Below, in pieces: positions 11,328 through 31,646 of a stretch of DNA of 64,000 bases. Origin of the DNA: Planctomycetota bacterium (GTDB lineage Bacteria; Planctomycetota; Planctomycetia; Pirellulales; Pirellulaceae); assembly GCA_016872725.1 (NCBI GenBank), contig VGZC01000004.1, positions 1 through 64,000 of the forward strand, in the 5' to 3' direction. Each line of letters begins with the position of its first letter. The stretch's first letter is position 1. The position numbers were made by a program, and so were the translations under genes. The notes below the pieces were generated by a model. That model did no database searches and was not told the DNA's origin. It was given only the letters and a program-made list of their open reading frames with translations.

Positions 11328-12542
11328 ATGGGCAAGTGCGTTCTCGCGTATTCGGGCGGACTCGACACTTCGGTCATCCTTGGATGGCTGCGGGACGAGG
11401 GATACGAAGTCCACGCGGTCTACGTCGATCTGGGGCAGCCGTGCGAGGATCGCGAGGCCATTTTGGAGAAGGCGAAATCGATCGGCGCCGCGAGCGCTCG
11501 GATCGTCGACGCGCGCGAGGAACTCTGCCGGGATTTCGCGTTCCCCGTCCTCATGTGGCAGGCGCGTTACGAGGGCGTTTACCTGCTGGGCACTTCGATC
11601 GCTAGGCCGCTCATCTCCAAGGTCTGCCTCCAGGTCGCTCGGGAAGTGGGAGCCGATTGCTACGCGCACGGCGCGACGGGCAAAGGCAACGATCAATGCC
11701 GGTTCCAATTGGCGGCCGAGGCGCTCGAACCGTCCGTCCGCATCGTGGCCCCGTGGCGCATGGAACGGTTCCGCGCCGCGTTTCCCGGCCGAACCGAGAT
11801 GATCGCCTACTGCGATCGCAGGAAAATCCCGGTCAAGGCATCGGTCTCCAAACCGTATAGCTCCGACGAGAATTGCCTGCATATCAGCTACGAGGCCGGG
11901 CGGCTCGAGGACCTCGCGGTCAACGGCGTCGAGCTCGTCGATTTCGGAATGACCGTCTCGCCGCGCCAAGCGCCCGATCGCGCGGAACGCGTCGCCGTCG
12001 CGTTCGAATCGGGAGTCCCCGTCAAGGTGAACGGCCAGGCGATGTCGGCCCGCGACATCGTGCAAACGCTCAACACCATCGGAGGCCGCAACGGAATCGG
12101 ACGGATCGACATGGTCGAGAACCGATTCGTCGGAATGAAGAGTCGAGGCGTCTATGAGGCGCCCGGCATGACCCTCTTGTATGAGGGCCTGCGGCTCGTC
12201 GAGCAACTCACACTCGACCGCGACCTGCTCCACCTTCGGGATCGACTCGCGCCCGACGTGGCCGAGCTCGTGTACTACGGATTCTGGTATTCCGCCAAAC
12301 TCGATGCCCTGACCGCGTTCATCCGCCAATCGCATCGTCCCGTGACGGGCGAAGTCGAACTCGATCTGTACAAGGGCAATACCAGTGTGAACCGGCGCTC
12401 GAGCCCCAACAGCCTGTACGACGAGGGAATCGCCACCATGGAGGGCGGCGGGTCGTACAATCAAACGGACGCCGAAGGCTTCCTTCGCATCCAGGGCTTG
12501 CCGTGCCGCGTCCAAGGCCGCGTCACGCCCCGCGCCTATTAG
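11328..12542 (+). CDS. argG: Argininosuccinate synthase
   Basis: A 404-residue enzyme of normal length that joins citrulline and aspartate using ATP in arginine biosynthesis. The ATP pyrophosphatase P-loop is AYSGGLDTS (residues 6-14). Other signatures are YAHGATGKGNDQCRF (ATP/aspartate binding), KPYSSDENCLHISYE, and SPNSLYDEGIATMEGG near the C-terminus. GGGAGG lies upstream of the ATG. The gene follows the lactonase gene closely and may be co-transcribed with it, though the functions are unrelated. Confidence 0.98.
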   Translation: MGKCVLAYSGGLDTSVILGWLRDEGYEVHAVYVDLGQPCEDREAILEKAKSIGAASARIVDAREELCRDFAFPVLMWQARYEGVYLLGTSIARPLISKVCLQVAREVGADCYAHGATGKGNDQCRFQLAAEALEPSVRIVAPWRMERFRAAFPGRTEMIAYCDRRKIPVKASVSKPYSSDENCLHISYEAGRLEDLAVNGVELVDFGMTVSPRQAPDRAERVAVAFESGVPVKVNGQAMSARDIVQTLNTIGGRNGIGRIDMVENRFVGMKSRGVYEAPGMTLLYEGLRLVEQLTLDRDLLHLRDRLAPDVAELVYYGFWYSAKLDALTAFIRQSHRPVTGEVELDLYKGNTSVNRRSSPNSLYDEGIATMEGGGSYNQTDAEGFLRIQGLPCRVQGRVTPRAY

Positions 12543-12606: not shown

Positions 12607-13077
12607 TCAGCGCGATGCCATGCGCTGCATCGGCCCGGTGAACGAGTGGAACATGTCATCGAACATCGTCGTGTCATCCTTGCGGATGATGACGTAATCG
12701 CCGGGCATCAGCGCGTAGTCATACTCGGCCTTGATCCGCCGCGAGCTGACATCGAACTCGCAGTCCATCTTGTGACGTCGGCCCTCGGGCGTGGCGCGGA
12801 CGACCGATGCGTGGACGCGACGGAATTTGCGCAAGGCGCCGGAATGGACCACGGCATCCTGGACATGGGTGGATTCGCCGAGCGGCATTTCCAGGATCTT
12901 GGGGTTCTTTCCGCCGCCATGGAGTTCGACAACAACCGTGCCGCGCGGGGGCGCGGGTGTTCCACCGGCAGCCGACAGGGACGCTTTGCTGAGCGGAATC
13001 GGCGCGCATCCGGTTTCCAACGCGGCGATGACCCCCAGCACGATCCAACCGCATGTCGAACGGCGAACGGCATCCAT
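12607..13077 (-). CDS. SLBB-like exported protein (polysaccharide-export type), small
   Basis: A 156-residue protein with a signal-like N-terminus ending in Gly-Cys at residues 23-24, a weak lipobox. The mature part reads like a single soluble-ligand-binding beta-grasp domain as found at the ends of Wza-type export proteins: a GTVVVELHGGG start, VQDAVVHSGALRKFRRVHASVVRA in the middle, and the terminal LMPGDYVIIRKDD. The start at 13077 has AGGAGA 7 bases upstream; the longer GTG frame lacks one. It is alone here, with no wza/wzc-like partner. The function is inferred only from this resemblance. Confidence 0.55.
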   Translation of the reverse strand: MDAVRRSTCGWIVLGVIAALETGCAPIPLSKASLSAAGGTPAPPRGTVVVELHGGGKNPKILEMPLGESTHVQDAVVHSGALRKFRRVHASVVRATPEGRRHKMDCEFDVSSRRIKAEYDYALMPGDYVIIRKDDTTMFDDMFHSFTGPMQRMASR

Positions 13078-13268
13078 GTCAGCCTCTCCTGATCCGATCG
13101 GCACGCGACCGAGTCCGCGCGGCGCGGACGGGCCATGCCGGGTTCATTGACGTCCGCCCCGATTATCGGCATCCGTTCGGCCGAACATGAGAATCTTTTC
13201 CGATTGGGCGAACTGTAGGGCCCATGTCGGCGAGCTGCGGAAGATGGGAAGAGCGGAACGACTACGTG

Positions 13269-16745: not shown

Positions 16746-17894
16746 ATGTCCGACAAGAACAAGATGTCCGTCGCCGAGATCCTCGCCGCGGCGCGCGCCG
16801 AAAAGGCCGGGGCGGCCAAGCCGACCTCCGACGCGAACTCGGCCGATGGGCCATCGCCCGTTCCGGCGGCATCCGACGCGCATGGATCGCCGGGCGCGGA
16901 ATCGGCATCCGAAACCGCACCGCCTGAAACCGCACCGCCTGAAAGCGGACCGGCGAAACCGATCGGCCCCGCTCCGGCCGCGATGCCGCGCGCTTCGATG
17001 AGCGTGGCGGAGATGCTTGCGGCCGCGCGGGCGGGAAAAAAGGCGGAGGCCGGGCCGAGCGGGTCGGCGGCCGCGAAACGGGCCGAGCCGAAAGGGGCGC
17101 CGAACGCGGCGGCCAAGGCTCAGGCCGAAACGGGGACCCCCGCGAAGAAACCGCCCGCGAAGTCACCCTCGCCCGGGACGGCGACGCCCGGGACGGCGAC
17201 GCCCGACACGACGAGTATCCTCGCCGCCGCGCGGCAAGCCGCCAAGCCGGGCCCGATCTCCAAGGCGCAGGCCGCCGCGCTCGGCCGGCCGGTCGCGCCG
17301 GCCAAGCCCGCGGGTCCACCGCCGATGCCCGAACGGCCGGCCCATCTTCGGCCCCGCGAACGGGCGCCCGAGCCGTCGCGACGCTCGTTCTTCGCGTCCT
17401 TCGCGGGCGTCCTATTCGGTTCATCGCTGGCCGTCGGCTTTTCGTCGTTGTTCGTCACGCATTTGTTATGGGCCCTCGGATTCGCCCGGTTCATGTTCCC
17501 GAACATCCTCACCGAGCCGCCGACGATCTTTAAGGTCGGCTTCCCGTCCGATTACGGGCCCGGCCAGGTGGAAACGAAATACGTGGCGCAGTTCGGTGTC
17601 TGGGTCGTTCGATCGGAGTACAACGGCCAGACGAGCATCTATGCGTTGCGAACGGTCTGCACGCATCTGGGCTGCACGCCGAACTGGCTGGAGGGCGAGC
17701 AGAAATTCAAATGCCCGTGCCACGGAAGCGGATTCTATAAGGACGGCATCAACTTCGAAGGCCCGGCGCCTCGGCCGCTCGAACGCTACGCGGTCCGTGT
17801 CGCCGACGATGGGCAGATTGAAGTCGACAAGAGCCGGAAGTTCAACGAGGAAATGGGTCAATGGAAGGACCCCGCGTGCTACATCCCGGTTTAG
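16746..17894 (+). CDS. Rieske iron-sulfur protein with long repeat-bearing N-terminal extension
   Basis: A 382-residue Rieske subunit of a bc/b6f-type quinol oxidase complex, about twice the usual length. The 2Fe-2S ligands are in CTHLGC (305-310) and CPCHGS (323-328). One membrane span lies at about 212-250. The first ~200 residues are a Pro/Ala/Lys-rich, probably cytoplasmic, tail with three copies of a short motif: MSVAEILAAARAEK (about 7-20), MSVAEMLAAARAGK (85-98) and SILAAARQAAK (about 157-167). The gene opens the operon, followed by cytochrome b6-like and subunit-IV-like genes. The tail may dock to another complex subunit or a cytoplasmic partner (inference). Confidence 0.93.
   Translation: MSDKNKMSVAEILAAARAEKAGAAKPTSDANSADGPSPVPAASDAHGSPGAESASETAPPETAPPESGPAKPIGPAPAAMPRASMSVAEMLAAARAGKKAEAGPSGSAAAKRAEPKGAPNAAAKAQAETGTPAKKPPAKSPSPGTATPGTATPDTTSILAAARQAAKPGPISKAQAAALGRPVAPAKPAGPPPMPERPAHLRPRERAPEPSRRSFFASFAGVLFGSSLAVGFSSLFVTHLLWALGFARFMFPNILTEPPTIFKVGFPSDYGPGQVETKYVAQFGVWVVRSEYNGQTSIYALRTVCTHLGCTPNWLEGEQKFKCPCHGSGFYKDGINFEGPAPRPLERYAVRVADDGQIEVDKSRKFNEEMGQWKDPACYIPV
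16911..16950 (+). repeat. 15-bp in-frame repeat in the Rieske tail
   Basis: The unit gaaaccgcaccgcct is repeated about 2.5 times and encodes ETAPP. A second 15-bp unit, gggacggcgacgccc, occurs twice near 17176-17205 and encodes GTATP. Confidence 0.85.
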
Positions 17895-17997: not shown

Positions 17998-18774
17998 ATG
18001 GCTTCGCTTTCGGAAATCATCCGCGGCTCGCAGATCTGGAAGAGCGTCTTCCGGCACCCGTTGCCCGTCGATCGGCGCAACCGGATCGCGGTCATTCTCA
18101 CGAATTTCTTCCTCCACCTGCATCCGGTCTCGATCCGCAAGCAGGGCATCGCGCTCAGTTACACGTGGTGCATGGGCGGCGTCACGTTCTTCCTGTTCCT
18201 GGTCGAAACGGTGACGGGCGTGCTGTTGATGTTCTATTACCGGCCGACGCTCGAATGGGCCTACCAGGACATCCTGGCGCTGCGGGACGTGACATCGATG
18301 GGTGTGATGCGCGAGTTGCATCGCTGGGGCGCGCACGGCATGGTGATCACGGTTTGGCTGCACATGTACCGGGTTTTCCTGACGGGAAGCTATAAGCCGC
18401 CGCGGGAATTCAACTGGGTGGTCGGCGTGATCCTCTTGCTGCTGACGCTCCTGTTGTCGTTTACCGGTTACCTGTTGCCCTGGGATCAGCTCGCCATCTG
18501 GGCGATCACGGTCGGATCGAACATGGCGCGCGCCACTCCGATCCTGGGGCACGAGGGGCCTGGCGCCCAGTTGTTGACGGTCGACGGCATCAGCATGATC
18601 ACGAATGCGTCGGACGCCCGGTTCGGGCTCCTCGGCGCTCGGTTCGTCGGCGAGGAAACGCTCAATCGGTTCTACGTGCTGCATTGCGTCGCGATTCCGC
18701 TCGCGGCGTCGGTGCTGATGGCGATCCATTTCTGGCGCATTCGGAAAGACGGCGGAATCAGCGGCCCGCTCTGA
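17998..18774 (+). CDS. Cytochrome b6-type subunit (N-terminal cytochrome b)
   Basis: A 258-residue haem b subunit with four spans. The b-haem ligands are His108/His122 (14 apart) and His229/His244 (15 apart). The 15-residue step and the ending GISGPL are b6-like. Other landmarks are [17 protein letters not shown] and RFYVLHC. Cys58 in the sequence WCMGGVT lines up with the cytochrome b6 YCLGGIT segment whose Cys binds the extra haem c_i covalently. Together with the next gene it builds the quinol-oxidising membrane core. The start at 17998 follows a weak AAGGAA. Confidence 0.94.
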
Positions 18775-18842: not shown

Positions 18843-18927
18843 CCGGGCATCCGTCCGCGGGGCGTTTGGCGTGTCGGACGGCGGGGGCGGGGTTGAGATC
18901 GACTACGCAGGACCAAAGACGACTGTC

Positions 18928-20301
18928 ATGCATGGACATAACGAAGCGGAGTTCCTGAAGGAAGTCGCCGGATTCCTCGGCGTCTATTACCTCGCGCTCG
19001 CCGCGATGAACATGACCGCGGCCCTTTATGTTTGGAAATCGGGCAAGGCGCTCCGCATCGTGAAGCTTGGCGGGACGGCGGCCACCACGGCCCACCTGTG
19101 GCTCCTGCTCGGGCTGGTCTTTCTTCTCATGGCTCCGCTGGGTTTCAGCGGCGACGCCGCCACGATGCGGCTTGTCTCGGTTCCCGAATCGTTCCGCGAG
19201 ATCATCAATGTGGCGATGGGTCCGATGGTCTACACGGTTGGATCGGTGGTGGGACTGGTGGTCCTGTTCGTGTTGCGGCGTTTCTTCGTGAAGCCGACGG
19301 TCGCCTGGATCGGGCTCAACGCGTCGCTGCTGCTCATGGGGCTCTCGATGACCGATCCCGATTTCGCTGACATCGTGCGCAAGGCGGACAACGTGCCGAT
19401 CGTCGGGCTGATCTTCATGCTCGGCTTCTTCACGTGGCTCGGCGCCTATCGCGCGATCGAGAACGACGATCGGGCGAAGCGGGGCTTGCCGCCGGTCGAG
19501 GCGGAGCAGCGCGAGAAGGTCCTGGTTTGGCCCGATCTGGTCTACATCGAGCTGATCTGCATGGTGTTCCTCACCGCGTTCCTGCTCGTCTGGGCGATCG
19601 TGCTCAAGGCGCCGCTCGAGGAGCCGGCGAGCGCGGTGAAGACGCCCAACCCGTCGAAGGCGCCGTGGTACTTCCTGGGTCTCCAGGAAATGCTCGTCTA
19701 TTACGATCCGTGGATGGCGGGCGTGGTCCTTCCGAGCCTGATCATCGTGGGGCTGGCCGCGATCCCCTATCTCGACTTCAACAAGAAGGGCAACGGCTAC
19801 TACACGATCGACGAGCGTAAGTTCGCGTACGTGATGTTTCAGTTCGGGTTCCTGCTGTTGTGGGTGACGTTGATCGTGATGGGCACGTTCCTGCGCGGAC
19901 CGAACTGGAATTTTTTTGGTCCGTATGAAACGTGGGACCCGCACAAGGTCGAAGCGCTGAACAACGTGGACTTATCGGAGTTTTTCTGGATCCGATGGCT
20001 TCACATGCCGCGTCCCAAGGCGCCGGACGGAGCGGGCATCCTGCGGACGCTCGCGATGATCGTCTACCGGGAGTCGCCCGGCATCGTGCTGCTCGTCGGA
20101 TATCTCGCGATCGTGCCCCACGCCCTGGTGCTCGGGAGCCGGTTCTTCCGGGACCTGTTCGCTCGCATGGGATTCCTGCGTTACATGGTGCTCGCGAACC
20201 TGCTCCTGATGATGATGCTGCTGCCGATCAAGATGATTTGCCGTTGGGGATTCAACCTCAAGTACTTCGTGGCGATCCCCGAGTACATGCTGAATTTCTA
20301 G
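18928..20301 (+). CDS. Extended cytochrome b6f subunit IV / C-terminal cytochrome b
   Basis: A 457-residue membrane protein, far longer than the ~160-residue subunit IV of b6f. The recognisable subunit IV part starts near WPDLVYIELICMVFL and contains NPSKAPWYFLGLQEML, where the quinol-site PEWY motif is APWY. Before it lie about 200 residues with four or five extra spans. After it lies a C-terminal section containing FLRGPNWNFFGPYETWDP, LNNVDLSEFFWIRWLH and two or three more spans. A GTG at 18871 would add 19 residues; ATG 18928 (MHGHNEAEF) is preferred but neither start has a strong ribosome-binding site. It works with the preceding b6-like protein. Confidence 0.88.
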   Translation: MHGHNEAEFLKEVAGFLGVYYLALAAMNMTAALYVWKSGKALRIVKLGGTAATTAHLWLLLGLVFLLMAPLGFSGDAATMRLVSVPESFREIINVAMGPMVYTVGSVVGLVVLFVLRRFFVKPTVAWIGLNASLLLMGLSMTDPDFADIVRKADNVPIVGLIFMLGFFTWLGAYRAIENDDRAKRGLPPVEAEQREKVLVWPDLVYIELICMVFLTAFLLVWAIVLKAPLEEPASAVKTPNPSKAPWYFLGLQEMLVYYDPWMAGVVLPSLIIVGLAAIPYLDFNKKGNGYYTIDERKFAYVMFQFGFLLLWVTLIVMGTFLRGPNWNFFGPYETWDPHKVEALNNVDLSEFFWIRWLHMPRPKAPDGAGILRTLAMIVYRESPGIVLLVGYLAIVPHALVLGSRFFRDLFARMGFLRYMVLANLLLMMMLLPIKMICRWGFNLKYFVAIPEYMLNF

Positions 20302-20374: not shown

Positions 20375-23300
20375 ATGCCGGCTTCGGAAACAACGGGATA
20401 CGACCAGAATCGACTGCATTTCCTTTTCGGGATCGCGGGCGTCTGCCTCCTGCTTTCGACGCTCTGGATGTTCGGCGCCGACCACAATCGCGAATGGAAG
20501 CACTTTCAGAAGACGGCCCGCGACGTCGAAGTGCGCATGACCGAATGGCGCGAGCTCCAGTACGCGAACGACGCGCACGAGCGGGAGCGGGTCCGGCTCG
20601 CCGACGCGCTGTCGAGCGCGCGGAGCCGGGCGTTGCCGGAGGGACGCGTCGACGCGTTCCTCGACGAAATCCGGCGCGACGCCGAGCGGCGCGGCGCGTC
20701 GGTCCCCGACGGCGCTTCGATGCGCGCGCTCGAATCGAAGATCAACGAGGCGTCCGCGGCGGCCGAATCGCCGCGGAAGGAATCGGTATCGGCCGAGGTC
20801 GCGGTCGACCAGCGGCGCACACAGCTCGAAGAAGCCTCGGCCGCGCATCAGAAGGCGATCGGCGCGGACGGCGAACCGGCCGAGTCCGAACGGCTCGCGG
20901 CCGACGTCGCCGAACGCAAGTCGCAACTCGCCGAAGCCCGGCGCGTCGCCGCCGACTCCGCCAAGGCGCGTCGGGAGGCCGAGGAGGCCGTCGCCGCGCC
21001 GAGGTCCGCGATGATCGACCGATTGACGCGGTTCGTGACCGACGCCAAGTTCCGCGAGGATTCGCTGCTCGTCCAACGCAAATTCAAGAACGCCGAGTAC
21101 GACAAGGAGCGTGCGAACCTGGACCTGGGAGTCCGCGATCGGGTGTCGGAAGGGGTCCTGCGGGAGCGGCAGGCGGCCGTCGACGCGCTCACCGCGCGCG
21201 TCGGTGAACTCACGCTCCAATACCAGGCCGCCGCCGACCATCGCAAGAAATTGCAGTCGATCGTCGACGAACTGACGTCGGCCGAGGCCGAGGCGGCCAA
21301 GAAGCTGGCCGATCATTCGGCCGATTTCGAACGGCTCGCCAAAACGGCCCGCGAACGGGATTCCCGCTACCGAGTCGGGCTCGCCCCCGGCAAACGGTGG
21401 CTCGAGCTGCCGATCCTCGACGCCTTCAATTCACCGCTCAAGATCGACAATCTTTGGAGCGATGGGCTCGAACAGAACTACAATTTCCGGACGGTCCGTC
21501 GATTCGATCGGTGCACGACGTGCCATAAGGGAATCGACAAGACCTTGCCGGGATCGGGAGTCGAAGGCGCCTACGAGCACGAGCAGACGATCGTGTTCAC
21601 GATCGAGACGGGAGCGGAAGACGAGTCATCGGAAGGAGGCGAGGGAGGCGGAAGTTCATCCGCACCGTCGTCCTCGGAACCCGCGCCGATCGCCGCCAAG
21701 GAGCTCGCCGCGCGGCTCGAAGCCGCATTCGGCCTGCGTCTCGCCGATGAGGGGCTCATCGCGGCGCACGATGTCACGGTCAGTTTCGTCGTGCCGCGGT
21801 CGCTCGGCGCCCGCGCCCGCCCCGCCGCGCGCGATGACGTTCCCCGGCTCGAACCCAACGATGTCCGCGAAATTCCGATCCGTCCCGTCGCGATCGAGGG
21901 CACGCATCTCGTCCCGGGCTTGCTCGCCGGCGATGTGATCGCCGAGGTCAACGGCGATCGGGTGACGAGCGCCGAGCGAGCCGCTTTCGCGCTGCTTGCC
22001 GCCGCCGATCGACGCGAGTCGATCCGATTGCTTGTGCGCCGAGGCCTTCCCCATCCGTACGCCAGTCACCCGCGGCTCGATCTGTACGTCGGATCGACGA
22101 GCCCGCACAAGGTGGCCGATTTCGCGTGCACGATCTGTCACGAAGGGCAGGGGAGCGCCACCGACTTCAAGTGGGCGTCGCATACCCCGAATTCCCCCGA
22201 ACAACGGAAGGAATGGGCCGAAGAGCACGGTTGGTTCGACAACCATCACTGGATCTACCCCATGAACGCGCGCCGGTTCCTGGAGAGCGCGTGCTTGAAA
22301 TGCCACCACGGCGTAACCGAATTGGAGCCGAGTGAACGGTTCCCCGACGCGCCGGCTCCCGCGCTCACGCACGGACACCAACTCATACTGAAGTACGGGT
22401 GTTTCGGTTGCCACGAAATCAATGGGTACGACGGCGACCGCCGCATCGGACCCGATCTGCGGACGGAACCCAACTTCTTCGCCGCCGCGCAGCAACTGAA
22501 GGCCGACGCGCGGACCGCCGGCGCGCTGACCTCGGATGAGGCGTCGTGGGTCGAAACGATCATCGAGCACCCGGAACGGGATGGGGCGCGGCGCAATCTG
22601 TATCGCGCGCTGGTCGAGGACGACAAGGCTCCCGAGCCGCGGTTCTCCGAATCGGCGCGGCGCGTGATCGCGCCCGTGCTCAAGGATGTCGAATCGCCCG
22701 GCCGGCTCAGAAAGCCCGGGCCCAGCCTCCGGTTCGTCCGTCACAAAGTCGATGACGGGTTCCTTTACGATTGGATCCGGGAGCCCAAGAATTTCCGCCC
22801 GTCGACCCGGATGCCCCGGTTCTTCGGCCATCGAAGCCACCTCGATGGGAAGGGGCGGGAAACGGCCGAGCGGTACGAACCGGTCGAGATCCTGAGCATG
22901 GCGCATTACCTGCGGGAACGAAGCCAGCCGTTCGAGTATCTGGCGCGGCCGGACGGCGTTTCCGAAGCCGCCGTCGATGAGAAGATCGCGCGCGGCAAGA
23001 TCGCGTTCGAACAGCGCGGGTGCCTCGCCTGCCACGGCCACGCCGATTTCCCCGACGTCGACCGTTACCGGCCCGCGAACAAGATCCAGCAAGGCCCCGA
23101 TCTCAGCGGGCTCGGCGACAAATTCGCCGCCGATCGCAATCCCAACGGCCGGGCCTGGCTCTATTCCTGGCTCAAGAAACCCAACCGATACCATGTGCGA
23201 ACGGCCATGCCGGATACGTTCCTCGATCCGATCGCGACGCGCGACGAATCGGCCAACGTCGTGTCGGTCACGGATCCGGCCGAGGACATCACGGAGTACC

Positions 23301-25429
23301 TTCTCGCGAGCCGTTCCGGTTGGGCGCCGCCACCTGGCACGCTGACCGCGATTACGGACGACGTGCGCGGCGCGGTCGACGGACTCGCCCTCGAATACCT
23401 GCGCGAGGCGTTCTTTGTGTCGGCCGCCGAGAAGTACGTCGCGAAGGGCATTCCGGCCGACATGGCCGCGGAACTGAACGGGGCCGAGAGGGAATTGGTC
23501 GTTCCGGTCGAGCAGTTCGAACAGGACGCGTCCCGCGTGAGCGATTCGCAGAAGCTCGCCTATCTCGGTCGCAAGTCGATCGGCAAATACGGGTGCTACG
23601 CGTGCCACGACATTCCGGGTTTCGAGGACGCGAAGCCGATCGGAACGGCGCTCGCCGACTGGGGCCGCAAGGCGCCGGCCCAACTTGCCTTTGAGCACAT
23701 CGCCGAGTACCTCGAACACGGGCACGCGGCGCATCCCGGCGCGCACGCGCCCCCCGGCGCCGAACCACCCGCTCCCCACTCCGAAAACACCAACGACGCG
23801 GGTCCGGACGCGGATGGGGCTCGGGACGCGGATCCCGAATCGGACGCGGCGGCCGACCAAGGAGCCGCCGACGCCTCGATGGAGGCGGCGGCGCCGAACG
23901 GCTCGCCGCCGAACCGTTCGGAGGAGGACGACGAGCTGCCCGAATTCTACCGCGAGCAGTTGCATGCCGGAAATCGGATCGGCTTCTTGTATCAGAAACT
24001 GCGCGAGCCGCGCGGCTACGACTACCATAAGACGACGAATAAGAAATACAACGAATGGCTTCGCATGCCCCTCTTCCCGCTCAACGCCAACGAGCGGGAG
24101 GCCATCGTGACGTTTGTGCTCGGCCTCGTCGCCGAACCGCCGGCCGCGAAGTACGTGTGCCGGCCCGATGCGCGGACCCAAGCGCTGCTCGACGGGGCCG
24201 TGGTTCTGGAAAAATACAATTGCGGCGGGTGCCACGTGATCGAGGGCGAGCGATGGAAACTGGCGTATAGGGCGGGCACGTTCGGCGAACCGACGGTCGC
24301 CGACACGTTCGACCTGACCTTGCACCACGCGGGACTTGATCAACGCACCGCGTCGGCGCGGCCCGATCATCGCGACTTGTTGCACGCGACCGTGGAGGGA
24401 TTGCCCGTCATCGACAACGACGGACTTCCCCAGGTGTTCGACATCGAGGGCGAACCCCTTTTCGAGGATGAGAAGTACTCGCCGCTGAACGTCCTGTTCG
24501 GCTTCATGTTGATGAAGCCCGCGATGCTCGACGGTTTCGCCTATCAGGTTCAGCAGGGCGGCATCCAAATCCGCGGCGCCGATGTGGACCGGCGATATCC
24601 GTCGAACGGCGGAGATCTGACGAAATACCTGTTGCCGCGGATCGTGACGCACGAACAGCAGGCCATCCCGACGCTGAAGGGAAGCGAGGCGTGGGGTTGG
24701 TTGCCTCCGCCGTTGATCGGACAGGGAACCAAGGTCCATGCCGAGTGGCTCCATGGATTCCTGCTCGATCCCCATCCGATCCGTCCGGGCGCCGTGCTCC
24801 GCATGCCCCGGTTCAACATGTCGCCCGACGAGGCCGCGAAATTGGTGAACTACTTCGCGGCCCGGGACGACGCGTCGTTCCCGTATAATTTCAACCGCGA
24901 GAAACGGTCCGACCACCTCGCCGCGAAGGAAGCCGAATACCAAACGGTCCTCGCGAAGGACGCGCCCGAGGTGAAAGCGACGCGGTTCGACCACGCGATG
25001 CGGATCGTGACAAACAAGCAATACTGCATCCAATGCCACATCGTCGGCGACTTTGTTCCGGCCAAAGAGGAGCGGGGTAAGGGTCCCGACCTTTCCCAGA
25101 TCTACGACCGACTGCGGCCCGACTACTTGAGACGCTGGATCGCTCGGCCGACCTCGGTCCTTCCGTACACGGGCATGCCCGTGAACATCCCATACAAGGC
25201 GGGCGAACCGTTCGACGGCACGACCGTTCCGCAAGACCTCTATCACGGAACGGCCCTTCAACAAGTGGACGCGCTCGTCGATCTGCTGTCGAATTACGAT
25301 CGGTTCGCCGCGACGAGGAGCAAGGTGCAGACGCTGGTCGAAGCCCAAGCGGCCGAAACGCCGGCGGCGCCCGCGGAAGGCGGCGCGACGTCGGGGGCTT
25401 CAGGCACCGAATCCTCGGATAACCAATAG
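20375..25429 (+). CDS. Giant membrane-anchored octahaem cytochrome c with coiled-coil and PDZ regions
   Basis: A 1,684-residue protein. A membrane anchor at about 15-38 (FGIAGVCLLLSTLWMFGAD) is followed by a long charged coiled coil to about 330. Eight CxxCH haem sites start at residues 380, 585, 640, 676, 883, 1074, 1283 and 1551. Between the first and second sites is a PDZ-like module (LLAGDVIAEVNGDRVTSAER, about 505-560). A Pro/Ala/Asp-rich linker lies near 1125-1185. The repeated segments YLRERSQPFEYL, TRMPRFF and RMPLFPLNANEREAIVTFVLG resemble mono-haem cytochrome c folds. ATG 20375 has GGGAGA 9 bases upstream; ATG 20366 is too close to it. Its position after the b6-like subunits suggests that it replaces cytochrome c1/f and carries electrons to the oxidase encoded downstream. 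Confidence 0.9.
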   Translation: MPASETTGYDQNRLHFLFGIAGVCLLLSTLWMFGADHNREWKHFQKTARDVEVRMTEWRELQYANDAHERERVRLADALSSARSRALPEGRVDAFLDEIRRDAERRGASVPDGASMRALESKINEASAAAESPRKESVSAEVAVDQRRTQLEEASAAHQKAIGADGEPAESERLAADVAERKSQLAEARRVAADSAKARREAEEAVAAPRSAMIDRLTRFVTDAKFREDSLLVQRKFKNAEYDKERANLDLGVRDRVSEGVLRERQAAVDALTARVGELTLQYQAAADHRKKLQSIVDELTSAEAEAAKKLADHSADFERLAKTARERDSRYRVGLAPGKRWLELPILDAFNSPLKIDNLWSDGLEQNYNFRTVRRFDRCTTCHKGIDKTLPGSGVEGAYEHEQTIVFTIETGAEDESSEGGEGGGSSSAPSSSEPAPIAAKELAARLEAAFGLRLADEGLIAAHDVTVSFVVPRSLGARARPAARDDVPRLEPNDVREIPIRPVAIEGTHLVPGLLAGDVIAEVNGDRVTSAERAAFALLAAADRRESIRLLVRRGLPHPYASHPRLDLYVGSTSPHKVADFACTICHEGQGSATDFKWASHTPNSPEQRKEWAEEHGWFDNHHWIYPMNARRFLESACLKCHHGVTELEPSERFPDAPAPALTHGHQLILKYGCFGCHEINGYDGDRRIGPDLRTEPNFFAAAQQLKADARTAGALTSDEASWVETIIEHPERDGARRNLYRALVEDDKAPEPRFSESARRVIAPVLKDVESPGRLRKPGPSLRFVRHKVDDGFLYDWIREPKNFRPSTRMPRFFGHRSHLDGKGRETAERYEPVEILSMAHYLRERSQPFEYLARPDGVSEAAVDEKIARGKIAFEQRGCLACHGHADFPDVDRYRPANKIQQGPDLSGLGDKFAADRNPNGRAWLYSWLKKPNRYHVRTAMPDTFLDPIATRDESANVVSVTDPAEDITEYLLASRSGWAPPPGTLTAITDDVRGAVDGLALEYLREAFFVSAAEKYVAKGIPADMAAELNGAERELVVPVEQFEQDASRVSDSQKLAYLGRKSIGKYGCYACHDIPGFEDAKPIGTALADWGRKAPAQLAFEHIAEYLEHGHAAHPGAHAPPGAEPPAPHSENTNDAGPDADGARDADPESDAAADQGAADASMEAAAPNGSPPNRSEEDDELPEFYREQLHAGNRIGFLYQKLREPRGYDYHKTTNKKYNEWLRMPLFPLNANEREAIVTFVLGLVAEPPAAKYVCRPDARTQALLDGAVVLEKYNCGGCHVIEGERWKLAYRAGTFGEPTVADTFDLTLHHAGLDQRTASARPDHRDLLHATVEGLPVIDNDGLPQVFDIEGEPLFEDEKYSPLNVLFGFMLMKPAMLDGFAYQVQQGGIQIRGADVDRRYPSNGGDLTKYLLPRIVTHEQQAIPTLKGSEAWGWLPPPLIGQGTKVHAEWLHGFLLDPHPIRPGAVLRMPRFNMSPDEAAKLVNYFAARDDASFPYNFNREKRSDHLAAKEAEYQTVLAKDAPEVKATRFDHAMRIVTNKQYCIQCHIVGDFVPAKEERGKGPDLSQIYDRLRPDYLRRWIARPTSVLPYTGMPVNIPYKAGEPFDGTTVPQDLYHGTALQQVDALVDLLSNYDRFAATRSKVQTLVEAQAAETPAAPAEGGATSGASGTESSDNQ

Positions 25430-25538: not shown

Positions 25539-26357
25539 ATGAACGCGAATCGAATGCGAACGTTGGTCGCCGCGGCCGCCGCGACGCTCGCCACCTTGGG
25601 GGTGGCACATGGCACGGCCCGCGCCGAAGGGTGGGGCGCGCTCAAGGTCCAATTCGTAATTGACGGAAAAGCCGCCGATGCGGCGCCCTTGTCAATCACC
25701 AAGGACCCGGAATACTGCGGCAAGTTCGGACTCAAGGACGAATCGGTCGTTGTGAACCCCGAGAACGGCGGAATCGCCAACGTCGCCGCGTTCCTGTATG
25801 TCGGCCGGACCGACAAGGTGAAGCCGACGATCCATCCTGATCTCGCGAAGATGGCCGATTCGGTGGCGAAGGTCGACAACAATGAATGCCGTTTCGCGCC
25901 GCGGATCGGCGTGATCTGGACGAAGCAGAAGGTCGAATTCGGGAATTCGGATACCGTGGTGCACAACATGAATGTCGCCACGGTCAACGCCGCGAACCCC
26001 CAGATGAACCAACTCATCCCCGCCGGCAAGAACATCACCCACTCGTTCAAGGCCGAGGAGGCTTTGCCGATTCCCGTCTCGTGCAATATTCATCCGTGGA
26101 TGAAGGGATACCTGGTCATCCGCGATACGCCGTACGCGGCGGTCAGTGATAAGGACGGGAATCTGACGATCGATAAGCTCCCGGCGGGCAAGTGGAAGTT
26201 CCGGGTCTGGCAGGAATCGGCGGGATATATTCAGGAGCCGACGGTCGGGGGCAAGAAGCAGTCGTGGAAGCGCGGCGAGGTCGAGGTCGAAATCAAGGAT
26301 GGACAGACCACCGATCTGGGCGTGGCCAAGATCGCGGCGGCCGCGTTCAAGAAATAG
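25539..26357 (+). CDS. Exported cupredoxin with amicyanin-like copper motif
   Basis: A 272-residue periplasmic protein with a signal peptide (1-29, cut near ARAEG). A type 1 copper site is visible: His142 (VVHNMNV), then CNIHPWM giving Cys182, His185 and Met188. C-x2-H-x2-M is the loop of amicyanin; plastocyanin has a longer one. After the copper loop comes a carboxypeptidase-regulatory-like beta domain (DGNLTIDKLPAGKWKFRVW). AAGGA lies 8 bases before the ATG. It follows the octahaem cytochrome and precedes a paralogue, so it is a candidate electron carrier or complex subunit. Confidence 0.85.
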   Translation: MNANRMRTLVAAAAATLATLGVAHGTARAEGWGALKVQFVIDGKAADAAPLSITKDPEYCGKFGLKDESVVVNPENGGIANVAAFLYVGRTDKVKPTIHPDLAKMADSVAKVDNNECRFAPRIGVIWTKQKVEFGNSDTVVHNMNVATVNAANPQMNQLIPAGKNITHSFKAEEALPIPVSCNIHPWMKGYLVIRDTPYAAVSDKDGNLTIDKLPAGKWKFRVWQESAGYIQEPTVGGKKQSWKRGEVEVEIKDGQTTDLGVAKIAAAAFKK

Positions 26358-26548
26358 CGAACGCCGGGTATCCGGCGATTCGATACTCGAAATCCGATGA
26401 TCTCCGCACGTCGGCAGGACGGCGGATGGGGGAGGCTCGCGCCGCGGGTTTCCGCCAACCGCCGTCCGATCGGCGTTCTTGCGGGAATGGATTTGGACGC
26501 GTTTCGTGAGGTCCTGGTTTGTTTGTTGTCGCGGTTGGGGGGCAACGC

Positions 26549-27490
26549 ATGCGAAGCAGGCTCGGGATGTCGGACCTTCCGCGACGCGTCACCGCCACGA
26601 TCGTATCGACGTTGCTTGCGGTCGTCGGCTGTGCCCGCGCGCTGCCCGATGATGCGAGGGCCGATCCGGACGCCGTGCGGGCGATTCGCGCGTCGCTCGA
26701 CGCCAAGCCCGCGGCCTCCGAACCCGAAAGCGGTTCGGTCGCCGCCACACCCACGGGATTCGCCGATTTCACGGGTATGTTTCGCGTCGACGGAGATCCG
26801 CCCGCCATGCCGCCGGTCCGCGTGGAAGGCGGCGACGCGGCCTATTGCGCTCCCGGCGGCAAGGCGCCTCCCGCCGAAACGGTCGTCGTCGGCCCGGGCG
26901 GCGGGCTTGCCCATGTGCTTGTCGCCCTCGACTCCAAGATTCCCGCCGAATGGGAACACGAACGCTACGCGGCGGCCCGGGACGCCTTGCTGACCGGCGA
27001 TCAGGCGTTCGATCAGAAAGGATGCCGGTTCCTCACCCATGTCTTCGCGATGCGGGCGACGCAATCGGTCGAGGTGCGCAACAGCGACTCGGTGTCGCAT
27101 AACACGAACATCGCCGCCAAAGGCAAGGCCCGGATCACGAACGACGTCATCCCGGGGGGAAGCAAGTCGATCTACGCGCCCGGCGGACCTTCCGGCATTC
27201 CGTTCGACGTGGGCTGCAACATCCATCCGTGGATGCGGGCCTACATGTTTGTCGCCGAATCTCCGTATTTCAGCGTCACCAATCTCGAAGGCCAGTTCGA
27301 ACTCCGGGGACTGCCCGCCGGCGTCGAGCTGACGTTCCGGGTCTGGCACGAGACGCTTGGCGGGAAATGGGATTCGGCGACCGTGAACGGAGCGGCGGCG
27401 GGCTGGTCACGAGGGAAGTTCGCCATCACGTTACAGCCGGGTCAATCCGAGAACTGGGAAATCGTCGTGGACGCGGCGGCCTTCCGGTAA
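26549..27490 (+). CDS. Cupredoxin lipoprotein, paralogue of the preceding gene
   Basis: A 313-residue lipoprotein (signal ends AVVGC, Cys28) with a low-complexity linker to about residue 68. The second half matches the preceding protein: His184 (SVSHNTNI), then Cys223, His226 and Met229 in CNIHPWM, followed by the same regulatory-like beta domain (LEGQFELRGLPAGVELTFRVW). Two additional Cys residues (100, 159) could form a disulfide. The lipid anchor would tether it to a membrane, unlike its soluble sister. The start at 26549 follows a GGGGGG stretch; upstream TTG codons lack a signal peptide context. Confidence 0.82.
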   Translation: MRSRLGMSDLPRRVTATIVSTLLAVVGCARALPDDARADPDAVRAIRASLDAKPAASEPESGSVAATPTGFADFTGMFRVDGDPPAMPPVRVEGGDAAYCAPGGKAPPAETVVVGPGGGLAHVLVALDSKIPAEWEHERYAAARDALLTGDQAFDQKGCRFLTHVFAMRATQSVEVRNSDSVSHNTNIAAKGKARITNDVIPGGSKSIYAPGGPSGIPFDVGCNIHPWMRAYMFVAESPYFSVTNLEGQFELRGLPAGVELTFRVWHETLGGKWDSATVNGAAAGWSRGKFAITLQPGQSENWEIVVDAAAFR

Positions 27491-27538: not shown

Positions 27539-28795
27539 ATGAAACAGGACAAGGCCGGGCGTCCGTTCCGAATCGGACCGACGTGGATCGCGGCGATCGC
27601 GTGCCTGGCCGCGCCGGGCTGCGGCTTGGTCGCTCCCGAACCGCGGTTCCGGACCAACGAGGCGTACCTCATCAATCAGGAAATCAAGCAGGGCGACCTC
27701 GAACAGTCCGATCGGACCGTACTGCGCCGGAACTTGAAGAACCTGATGGTCGCGGCGTTCGGGACTCCCAACGAGCCGCATGTGCCCGAACTCGAAGGCA
27801 TCGACGCGAAGCAGCTCTTCGATCCCGCGAAGCTCGCCATCGCCGCGGGGCCGGTCGCGAGCGATCGGTTCGGAGCGCCGAAGGGCCTCTATCGCGAACA
27901 CTGTGCCCATTGCCACGGAATCACGGGTGACGGAAACGGTTCGACCGCGGCGTTCCTGAATCCCTATCCTCGGGACTATCGGCGCGGCCTGTTCAAGTTC
28001 AAGTCGACTCCGGGCGCGGAGCCTCCGACGCACGACGACTTGCTTCGCGTCATGACGAACGGGGTCCCCGGCACGGCGATGCCTTCCTTCCGCCTGCTGA
28101 ACGGTGACGAGATCGACGCGCTCATCCATTACGTGCGTTACCTGGCGATCCGCGGTCAGGTCGAACGGGCGCTGATCGAGTATTCGTTCCAGGGTGAGCT
28201 GGATCTTGTCGAAGCGACGCGGGAGACGTTGAGCGAGCCGGAAAGCGCTGCGTTCGTGAAATCGGAGATCGTCGCGGTCGCGACGCGATGGCGGCAGACC
28301 GAGACGCTGGCGACGACCGTGCCGTCGCCCCCCGCCGACTTCGAATCGGCCGCATCGATCGAACGGGGCCGGTCGTTGTTTTTCGGCCCGATCGCGAGCT
28401 GCGTCAAATGCCACGGCGAAACGGCGCTCGGCGACGGCACGACGACGGACTACGACGAATGGGCCAAGGAGCTGATGCCCAATGAACCCGACAAGCTCGC
28501 GAGGTTCCTCGATCGCGGAGCCGCGCTCGAACCGCGAACCATCCGTCCGCGCAACCTGAGACTCAACGTGTTCCGAGGCGGGCGTCGGCCCGTCGATCTG
28601 TACTGGCGGCTCCACAACGGAATCCTCGCGTCCGGAATGCCGGCCGCGTCGATGCGGAGCGACGGCGCGGGTGACGACGATCCGAGACTCGCGCCCGACG
28701 ACCTTTGGCATCTCGTGGCCTACGTGCGCAGCCTGCCGTATGACGCGTTGAGCTCGCCGAGGGACGCGGTCAGCTACCAGCGGGAGCGGCCATGA
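27539..28795 (+). CDS. Dihaem cytochrome c lipoprotein
   Basis: A 418-residue protein with a lipoprotein-like N-terminus (AAPGC, Cys28) and two CxxCH sites: CAHCH (122-126) and CVKCH (288-292). Each is followed by a cytochrome c tail with a likely axial Met (GVPGTAMPSF for the first; NGILASGMPAAS for the second) and a WHLVAYVRSLPY helix at the end. This is a two-domain class I cytochrome, membrane-tethered in the periplasm. It lies between the copper proteins and the oxidase genes, so it probably passes electrons to the Cu_A site of CoxB. Confidence 0.9.
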   Translation: MKQDKAGRPFRIGPTWIAAIACLAAPGCGLVAPEPRFRTNEAYLINQEIKQGDLEQSDRTVLRRNLKNLMVAAFGTPNEPHVPELEGIDAKQLFDPAKLAIAAGPVASDRFGAPKGLYREHCAHCHGITGDGNGSTAAFLNPYPRDYRRGLFKFKSTPGAEPPTHDDLLRVMTNGVPGTAMPSFRLLNGDEIDALIHYVRYLAIRGQVERALIEYSFQGELDLVEATRETLSEPESAAFVKSEIVAVATRWRQTETLATTVPSPPADFESAASIERGRSLFFGPIASCVKCHGETALGDGTTTDYDEWAKELMPNEPDKLARFLDRGAALEPRTIRPRNLRLNVFRGGRRPVDLYWRLHNGILASGMPAASMRSDGAGDDDPRLAPDDLWHLVAYVRSLPYDALSSPRDAVSYQRERP

Positions 28796-28922
28796 CGGGC
28801 CGGCCGGTTCGACGATCGGCGGCCCGTTCCGCCGGATCGCGCGGCGCGTGCGGAAGGCCGTCGCCGCGAAAAGGACGATATCCGCGACGCATGGGACTAC
28901 GACGACGCATGGGAGTGGGAAC

Positions 28923-29747
28923 GTGAACCGAACCGTCGATCGCCTGTGGAGCTTGTTCTTCCTGATGGTTCCCGTCCTCGGAGTCGGCGTCTTCGTTTGG
29001 GCGATGGCGGACATCTATCCGATGCAAGGCCATTGGCTGCCGGAGAACGTCGACGAGCAAGGGGGCATCATCGACGGGCTCTTCCTGTTCATCCTCGCGC
29101 TGACCGGGATCATCTTCGTCGGGACGGGAGTCGCGCTCTTCGTGTTCCTCTGGCGCTACGCGGCTTCGGTACGTTCCGAATCGGTCGCATACACGCACGG
29201 CAGCCACACGCTCGAAGTCGTCTGGTCGATCATTCCGGCCGCGACGCTCCTCTTCATCGCGATCTACCAGATGAACGCGTGGGCCGACGCGAAGTTGCGC
29301 CGCCCGTCGGTCGTGATCGACGGCAAGCGCGAGCCAAGACCTCCGATCGCGGAAGTCACCGGCCGGCAGTTCGAGTGGCGCATCCGATACGCGGGAGCGG
29401 ACGGAGCGGTGGGGACGAAAGACGATCTGTTCACGGTGAACGAATTGCGTCTTCCCGCGAACGAGGAGATCGTGCTGTCGATCAAGACCGAGGACGTCCT
29501 TCACAGTTTCTTCCTTCCCAATCTGCGGATCAAACAGGACGTTGTTCCGGGTATGAAACAACTCGTCTGGTTCCGCCCCACCCGGACGGGATCGTACGAC
29601 ATCGTTTGCGCCGAACTGTGCGGCTGGGGCCACTATAAGATGCGGGGACGGCTGGAACTCATGACGCGCGAGGCGTTCGATGCGTGGTATCGGGTCGAGT
29701 TCGCGCAGCAGGAGACGTCCTCCTTCGAACCGCCCGCGGCGGAATAG
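28923..29747 (+). CDS. coxB: Cytochrome c oxidase subunit II
   Basis: A 274-residue subunit with two N-terminal spans (about 8-28 and 50-78) and a periplasmic Cu_A domain. The Cu_A ligands are His194 (VLHSFFLPN), Cys229, Cys233, His237 and Met240 in CAELCGWGHYKM. The QFEWRIRYAG segment is the conserved aromatic electron-entry region. There is no fused cytochrome c domain. A GTG at 28923 preceded by GGGA gives a compact N-terminus before the first span; an upstream in-frame GTG at 28848 would add 25 residues. It heads the coxB-coxA-ctaA-ctaB-coxC group. Confidence 0.95.
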   Translation: MNRTVDRLWSLFFLMVPVLGVGVFVWAMADIYPMQGHWLPENVDEQGGIIDGLFLFILALTGIIFVGTGVALFVFLWRYAASVRSESVAYTHGSHTLEVVWSIIPAATLLFIAIYQMNAWADAKLRRPSVVIDGKREPRPPIAEVTGRQFEWRIRYAGADGAVGTKDDLFTVNELRLPANEEIVLSIKTEDVLHSFFLPNLRIKQDVVPGMKQLVWFRPTRTGSYDIVCAELCGWGHYKMRGRLELMTREAFDAWYRVEFAQQETSSFEPPAAE

Positions 29748-29840
29748 GATCGCGCCGGGCCGCCGATCGTCGAGTTCGGCGGACGCGGGCTTCCGCGATC
29801 GGGGATGGGAAACCGGGGAATCGGATGGCGAGGAACGGGA

Positions 29841-31646
<1,806 letters not shown>

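Follow-up and report, generated by a model that had tools for sequence, protein, structure and literature searches.

The window analysed here is a whole stretch of 64,000 nucleotides (positions 1 to 64,000, forward strand, of contig VGZC01000004.1, assembly GCA_016872725.1) from a planctomycete of the family Pirellulaceae, and the element in question is a gene at 20375..25429 whose product carries eight haem-binding CxxCH sites and, inserted between the first and the second of them, a PDZ domain. The gene stands directly behind those of a Rieske protein and of two cytochrome b-type subunits, and its relatives keep this arrangement, which raises two questions: what does such a large cytochrome do next to these subunits, and what is a PDZ domain doing inside it? 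The features of the protein are as follows (residue numbers are those of the protein; aa, amino acids; pLDDT, predicted local distance difference test).

20375..25429, forward strand: octahaem cytochrome c subunit, 1,684 aa, without internal stop
20405..20485, forward strand: membrane anchor, sole transmembrane stretch of the protein, residues about 11-37
20492..21355, forward strand: long helical arm, residues 40-327 (AlphaFold2, block pLDDT 74-97, 68 at the end)
21512..21526, forward strand: haem 1, CTTCH, residues 380-384 (Cys and His invariant in a 15-protein alignment)
21578..22054, forward strand: PDZ domain, residues 402-560 (loops at about 411-440 and 487-509 poorly predicted)
22127..22141, forward strand: haem 2, CTICH, residues 585-589 (the upstream PH fits the magnetochrome pattern PH-X6-CX2CH)
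22292..22306, forward strand: haem 3, CLKCH, residues 640-644
22400..22414, forward strand: haem 4, CFGCH, residues 676-680 (candidate ligand Met813)
22928..23317, forward strand: haem 5 domain, residues 852-981, CLACH at 883 (SoxX-like class I cytochrome c, PF00034; candidate ligand Met945)
23594..23608, forward strand: haem 6, CYACH, residues 1074-1078 (candidate ligand Met1231)
24167..24874, forward strand: haem 7 domain, residues about 1265-1500, CGGCH at 1283 (c551-like, Z about 6, weak; candidate ligand Met1477)
24890..25312, forward strand: haem 8 domain, residues about 1506-1646, CIQCH at 1551 (candidate ligand Met1601)

An alternative in-frame ATG lies 9 bases upstream of 20375 and would yield 1,687 aa, but the start at 20375 is favoured by the N-terminus MPA[T/S/N] shared by 70 of 77 relatives. 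The initial annotation, made from the sequence alone, had described one protein with eight CxxCH sites, a membrane anchor and a coiled coil of ~290 residues, in which the haems were irregularly spaced and did not form a simple wire. Most of this description stands. The eight sites begin at residues 380, 585, 640, 676, 883, 1074, 1283 and 1551, against a chance expectation of 0.007 on average and 2 at most in 2,000 composition shuffles of the protein, and the single transmembrane stretch is that at about 11-37. Regarding the coiled coil, what is recovered is a series of long predicted helices at 40-83, 91-106, 114-163, 168-254 and 259-327 (pLDDT taken as ten-residue means), whereas the coiled-coil character itself is that annotation's label. 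These helices come from a first AlphaFold2 model, covering residues 1-761 (39 aligned sequences, mean pLDDT 75.6); a second one covers the part with haems 4 to 8 (predicted template modelling score 0.79, mean pLDDT 78.3). Foldseek returned nothing from the PDB at E <=0.001 for either model, and aligning the models structurally with VIA-align brought up PDZ domains, proteins with helical bundles and individual cytochrome domains, the absence of other families from that list being uninformative. Pfam recognises class I cytochrome c, c7/c3-like haem motifs and, weakly, a PDZ domain.

The haem scaffold is highly conserved. Two conserved peptides, used as patterns to scan public genomes, picked out 178 related stretches, the best 80 of which were compared, being the closest relatives and not a fair sample. 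Eight CxxCH sites are present in 77 of these 80 loci, the other three (L088, L096, L101) having seven in genes cut by contig ends, and the spacing between haems 2 and 3 (55 residues) and haems 3 and 4 (36 residues) is the same in all 80. Among 19 other genomes searched from the same family and order, 13 hold a full-length relative with eight CxxCH sites, three hold partial ones only and three none; in one of the 13 (L008/L015) the haem 3-4 spacing is 35. At the level of the phylum, 170 of 294 genomes gave some match, a figure that is not a count of complexes, since many matches amount to one cytochrome domain. In the 15-protein alignment (four Pirellulales-type sequences and 11 from other lineages) every row keeps both Cys and the His of each of the eight sites, as well as H565, H578, H603, M813, M945, M1231, M1477 and M1601. 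Because these three His and five Met are conserved across the phylum, the alignment suggests three N-terminal haems (1 to 3) with putative bis-His ligation, followed by five units (4 to 8) of His/Met class I type. The haem 5 domain of the model aligns with SoxX (Z 10.4, root-mean-square deviation (rmsd) 2.4 over 98 residues), and that of haem 8 shows a weak fold match to cytochrome c1 (Z about 5) and an NCBIfam SoxX match of 57.4 bits, below the cut-off of 61. The spacing described initially is thus irregular indeed, yet conserved, and the claim that the protein is not a simple wire holds in part, as the conserved residues point to three His-ligated haems and then five His/Met units.

Three further genes precede that of the octahaem protein on the same strand.

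16746..17894, forward strand: Rieske [2Fe-2S] subunit, 382 aa (PF00355; Rieske domain at residues 262-348)
17998..18774, forward strand: cytochrome b6-type subunit, 258 aa (PF00033, PF13631)
18871..20301, forward strand: subunit-IV-like membrane protein, 476 aa (PF00032; KAPWYF in place of PEWY)

A simple hydropathy scan found one transmembrane segment in the Rieske protein (214-232) and three of the four helices of b6; the assignment of a four-helix b6 and a separate subunit IV is backed by family and PDB matches. The order Rieske-b6-subunit IV-octahaem protein, on one strand, is found in 64 of the 64 loci where all four genes were detected. The set resembles the cytochrome b6f complex in its split b6 and subunit IV, in its Rieske subunit and in Cys58 of b6, which aligns with the cysteine of the b6 motif FYCLGG, a position that binds haem c-i in b6 and that is a cysteine in 64 of 68 loci, the others being three gaps and one Gly. 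It differs from it in the octahaem protein, found here instead of cytochrome f, in a much longer subunit IV and in the replacement of PEWY, presumably the quinol-site motif of b6f and bc1 complexes, by APWY: 75 of 77 subunit-IV loci read APWYF (the other 2 are gaps), all 11 of the distant loci read APWY, and the usual glutamate is therefore missing throughout. In NCBIfam, b6 and subunit IV are closest to ExtP and ExtQ of the selenite/tellurite (Ext) operon (262.6 and 59.2 bits), although both scores lie below the curated cut-offs (290 and 150). The octahaem protein had been proposed to take the place of cytochrome c1/f, and this proposal is strengthened by the conserved gene order, by the lack of a cytochrome c1 or f among the Pfam-scanned neighbour genes and by the publication of Kustd1485 in that role. 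Being very large, multihaem and membrane-anchored, the protein might otherwise be regarded as a free-standing electron conduit, for example for extracellular electron transfer, which merely adjoins complex III genes; however, its adjacency and order with these genes are kept both in Pirellulales-type and in more distant loci, its anchor is a single N-terminal helix and no porin was found among the Pfam-scanned neighbours, which makes such a conduit very improbable.

The type of complex in which an octahaem protein stands for cytochrome f is already known from anammox bacteria. In the b6f-like complex of Kuenenia, the multihaem subunit Kustd1485 replaces cytochrome f, and in its model long helices wrap the complex (PMC12954380). 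The Rieske protein of the window has its best PDB match in 9rk3, which is Kustd1480 of Kuenenia stuttgartiensis (E 1.7e-41). In locus L102, of family f51 (a family that the phylum-wide search found as shorter matches), the genes encode, one after the other, a Rieske protein (168 aa), b6 (275 aa), an NAD(P) oxidoreductase-type protein of 566 aa with Pyr_redox (pyridine-nucleotide) and Fer4 (4Fe-4S) domains, subunit IV (277 aa) and a protein of 948 aa in which eight CxxCH sites occur. Since the adjacent Rieske protein matches 9rk3 over its full length (117 of 117 residues, 273.6 bits), this 948-aa protein is taken to be Kustd1485. Its best local BLASTP alignment with the octahaem protein of the window spans residues 1419-1640 of the latter (E 6.9e-28, 31.5% identity). 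Both complexes share related Rieske, b6-like and subunit-IV-like proteins in the same order, an eight-CxxCH protein with the identical three His and five Met, and long helices, those of Kustd1485 being seen in its model. Unlike the protein studied here, that of L102 has only 39 residues between haems 1 and 2 and no PDZ domain; the b6 and subunit IV genes are separated there by one for an NAD(P) oxidoreductase, of which the cluster here has none; and no matching oxidase or cupredoxin gene was found in the 19.5 kilobases (kb) of L102, whereas an oxidase adjoins the complex here.

Does the complex of the window then bifurcate quinol electrons to NAD(P), as has been proposed for Kustd1480-1485? 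The related subunits in the same order would speak for it, and so would three residues of Kustd1481 (His62, Arg266 and Lys267) that the published proposal regards as ligands or partners of an extra haem b serving NAD(P) reduction. The equivalent of His62, His40 of the b6 at 17998-18774, is kept in 65 of 68 loci (3 gaps), those of Arg266 and Lys267 in 67 of 68 (1 gap), and all three in 11 of 11 distant loci, three of family f51 included. Nevertheless, only 96 bases separate b6 from subunit IV here, as against the 566-aa Pyr_redox/Fer4 gene of L102. This gap does not exceed 390 bases in any of the 68 Pirellulales-type loci and stays within 252 bases in 36 of 40 others; gaps of 1.9 to 4.0 kb are confined, among the loci compared, to four of family f51 (L102, L103, L113 and L152). 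Reduction of NAD(P) was rejected as the function here and is given very little chance, because the cluster, to which the comparison was confined, lacks an oxidoreductase gene. As complexes that have no NAD(P) gene in this interval keep the three residues all the same, these do not mark NAD(P) reduction: either the extra haem b is widespread or the prediction needs rereading. The published proposal becomes testable in this way, its extra-haem-b residues being conserved where no such gene sits. The anammox form, for its part, becomes comparable with its relatives: among the loci compared, the anammox-like f51 alone has an NAD(P) gene in that interval.

Regarding the second question, the PDZ-like module announced for the interval between haems 1 and 2 proved to be present, and the structure prediction that had been suggested as a check does contain a PDZ fold. 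In the AlphaFold2 model it is confident at about 441-560, outside the loop at about 481-510, with an extra strand at 404-410, and structural alignment of residues 402-560 matches many solved PDZ domains (Z about 11, rmsd about 2 Å over about 85 residues). Pfam PDZ_6 matches the haem 1-2 stretch in 73 of 78 members at E <=0.01, the match of the octahaem protein itself (25.2 bits) lying below the cut-off of 27 bits, and a profile built from the 78 stretches matches the PDZ domains of DegP, DegQ and site-2 proteases, DegP being the best (E 5.7e-12). This likeness to HtrA/DegP ends at the domain, since the PDZ here is inserted in a cytochrome and no trypsin-type protease domain was matched by Pfam at E 0.1 in the protein. 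The octahaem protein has F452-G453-L454 where we assume, from the hydrophobic-G-hydrophobic pattern, that the carboxylate-binding loop of a PDZ domain lies, and G453 is invariant in 78 of 78 members. The domain would most likely dock a C-terminal tail on the periplasmic side, belonging to subunit IV or the Rieske protein within the complex or to an outside partner. A serious possibility, though not the one that we favour, is that it is a passive spacer or self-plugged module which parts haem 1 from haems 2 and 3 or shapes the fold and binds no peptide: it sits inside the polypeptide between two haems, its loops differ widely in length among members, and the PDZ domains of MamP make dimer contacts, according to the MamP study (PMC3971196). 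Such a role does not account for the invariance of G453, nor does it predict the presence of PDZ domains at three other sites of the same family.

Returning to docking, the tails of the neighbouring subunits offer candidate ligands. Subunit IV is one of them because its C-terminus, like the PDZ, is probably periplasmic: 69 of 75 Pirellulales-type loci have four transmembrane segments behind the quinol-site motif, and the side of the membrane on which this motif lies is assumed here. Subunit IV ends in Phe or Leu in all 77 Pirellulales-type loci and in the PDZ-bearing L109 and L110. It ends in Ile or Val in the remaining 8 of 9 loci of family f10 and in 31 of 32 others; four of the f10 loci with such an end (L111, L114, L115, L117) nonetheless have a PDZ in the haem 5-6 interval. 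This apparent tracking of the PDZ by the end residue of subunit IV was spotted after the ends of nine proteins had been viewed and involves about three lineages, and it may serve as a lead only. The C-terminus of the Rieske protein was also considered as a marker of a PDZ ligand and was discarded as not discriminating, given that it ends in Val in 53 of 64 Pirellulales-type loci and also in 4 of 9 f10 loci and 13 of 30 others (of these 30, L110 carries a PDZ, and L106 and L149 are the same gene).

PDZ domains appear at other positions of the same cytochrome family as well. Between haems 5 and 6, one is matched by Pfam PDZ_2 in L111 (37.4 bits, cut-off 27), with matches below the cut-off in L117 and L118, and a custom model built from the 78 Pirellulales stretches detects it in L111, L114, L115 and L117; between haems 6 and 7, L109 has one (33.4 bits); after the last haem, L125 does (42.9 bits); and L110, a divergent member of the same order, has one between haems 1 and 2 (35.1 bits). 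In all, the custom model, which is partly circular for Pirellulales and missed the PDZ of L109, matches six of 50 wider octahaem frames (49 distinct genes), to which Pfam adds L109 and, weakly, L118. Pfam covered 20 of the 50, chosen for their long gaps or as examples, so that the count of PDZ domains may be low; it found none at E 0.01 in L108, L104, L102 and L112, and none at E 0.001 in L116, L119, L129, L139, L142, L135, L133, L107, L145 and L130, L118 with its weak match being a close relative of the negative L119. Eight CxxCH sites are present in 48 of the 50, L125 having seven (the contig ends within the gene) and L138 six (the frame stops early). In the anammox-like relatives the 39 residues between haems 1 and 2 leave no room for a PDZ, the flanks joining directly, and in f10 this spacing is 50-67.

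A tree of joined b6 and subunit IV sequences (58 rows, including about a quarter of the Pirellulales-type loci) groups 19 Pirellulales rows with a PDZ between haems 1 and 2 (support 100/97), and adjoining them, as a sister group, is f10 (99/96), in which PDZ positions differ. L099 and L110, which also have a haem 1-2 PDZ, fall elsewhere on long branches, L099 with a divergent b6 beside the anammox rows and L110 on a very long branch, both placements being unsure. This suggests that PDZ domains may have been gained repeatedly at separate places of one cytochrome family; separate gains are favoured because the positions differ between lineages, although the tree does not formally separate gains from losses. 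As a side observation on the same tree, L044 and L080 are titled Kuenenia stuttgartiensis and yet group inside Pirellulales, and these titles, as well as those of L058 and L071 (both outside the tree), look wrong.

The haem that follows the PDZ recalls MamP and MamE, in which a PDZ precedes haems of the magnetochrome type, with the minimal pattern [P/T/H]H-X5-9-CX2CH according to the study mentioned above (PMC3971196). Could the protein be a periplasmic iron oxidase like MamP, its PDZ and magnetochrome-type haems handling iron? Haem 2 comes directly after the PDZ and fits the pattern (as PH-X6-CX2CH), and the Pfam magnetochrome family PF18509 matches 52 of 78 members (best E 6.9e-5). However, haem 3 does not fit, so that there is one such haem and no tandem after the PDZ, and five class I domains in a b6f-type gene context are at odds with such a function. 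Kinship with MamP was rejected, since haem 2, with its aligned His, exists in PDZ-less anammox relatives; the haem being older than the PDZ, the combination arose separately, and an iron oxidase has hardly any chance of being the right explanation.

Taken as a whole, the composition and conservation of the protein, its gene order, its relationship with Kustd1485, the PDZ fold and the conserved His and Met residues lead us to regard it, with a probability of about 0.82, as a relative of Kustd1485 that is anchored in the membrane, serves a b6f-like Rieske/cytochrome b complex as its cytochrome c subunit and bears a PDZ whose probable task is docking. The electron path and the partners that we propose involve the products of genes downstream.

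25539..26357, forward strand: cupredoxin-like protein with the copper-site pattern H...CNIHPWM
26519..27490, forward strand: second cupredoxin-like protein, same H...CNIHPWM pattern, start codon uncertain
27539..28795, forward strand: dihaem cytochrome c (PF00034, two stretches)
28848..29747, forward strand: CoxB, cytochrome c oxidase subunit II
29805..31646, forward strand: CoxA, cytochrome c oxidase subunit I (aa3 oxidase)

Quinol would be oxidised at the core formed by the Rieske protein, b6 and subunit IV; the Rieske domain would then reduce one of the eight haems, and the five domains of His/Met type would pass the electrons to the cupredoxins and the dihaem cytochrome and, from these, to the aa3 oxidase. 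The helical arm behind the anchor probably wraps the complex, by analogy with the Kustd1485 model, and in the Pirellulales line the PDZ would be a later insertion between haems 1 and 2, where it would most likely dock a C-terminal tail. Of the 55 Pirellulales-type loci with 6.5 kb or more of sequence downstream, 53 hold CoxA, and beyond it in the window lie proteins matching CtaA, UbiA, COX3, SCO1 and DUF420. The two cupredoxin-like proteins between the octahaem and the oxidase genes may carry electrons in place of cytochrome c. In their H...C-x2-H-P-W-M pattern, every one of the four positions is kept in 79 to 81 of 81 aligned rows, in which some loci give one frame to both sets (two distinct frames exist in 61 of 72 Pirellulales-type loci); their loop presumably resembles that of amicyanin, and a profile of both together finds a single match in the PDB, to the cupredoxin domain of a copper nitrite reductase (E 0.0013).

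Several points weigh against this reading. Docking by the PDZ is something that we infer, and the candidate ligand tails of subunit IV and the Rieske protein are hydrophobic also in lineages without a PDZ. The AlphaFold2 models are weak near haems 2 and 3 (block means about 37-57, with similar values at the start of the second model). The link with the oxidase is not universal, as L049 and L082 lack coxA in 10 kb downstream. Moreover, the same genome has two other Rieske/b loci and a set of genes resembling alternative complex III; because of these, the octahaem complex need not be the main quinol oxidiser, and the genome apparently encodes four quinol-oxidising complexes. Of these further genes, recorded as L159, L160 and L161, the two Rieske/b loci include one frame that joins b and two CxxCH sites, and the other set comprises a 216-aa protein with five CxxCH sites, a 1,003-aa FeS/molybdopterin-like protein and an NrfD-type protein, the label of alternative complex III being our assumption (its Qrc and Dsr family matches lie below the cut-offs). 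L049, whose record is titled Candidatus Anammoximicrobium, has the octahaem gene with its PDZ (PDZ_6 26.1 bits, just below the cut-off) and no cox genes within 10 kb downstream.

The complex differs from the known anammox type in the absence of an NAD(P) gene from the cluster, in the adjacent oxidase and in the PDZ within a conserved haem scaffold. An anammox oddity, the octahaem protein in place of cytochrome f, is thereby tied to a complex of many planctomycetes, most of the Pirellulales-type ones adjoining an aa3 oxidase. Among the open-access matches listed, no paper was found on a PDZ in this octahaem cytochrome or on its complex in non-anammox planctomycetes, which is weak evidence, the subscription literature lying largely outside that scope. 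The repeated insertion of a PDZ into one cytochrome would be an unusual evolutionary pattern, and it makes the idea of docking testable. A more ambitious proposal, doubtful as a whole, is that of a complex III in which PDZ domains were gained independently at four places, each acting as a clasp, either on a short C-terminal tail (from subunit IV or Rieske) or on an outside partner, to control assembly or electron delivery. This would be a quinol-oxidising branch of planctomycetes docked or gated by PDZ domains, in which blue-copper proteins and not cytochrome c lead to the oxidase. Elsewhere in the window, a small open reading frame without a Pfam match (12607-13104, reverse strand) adjoins the argininosuccinate synthase gene at 11328-12542.

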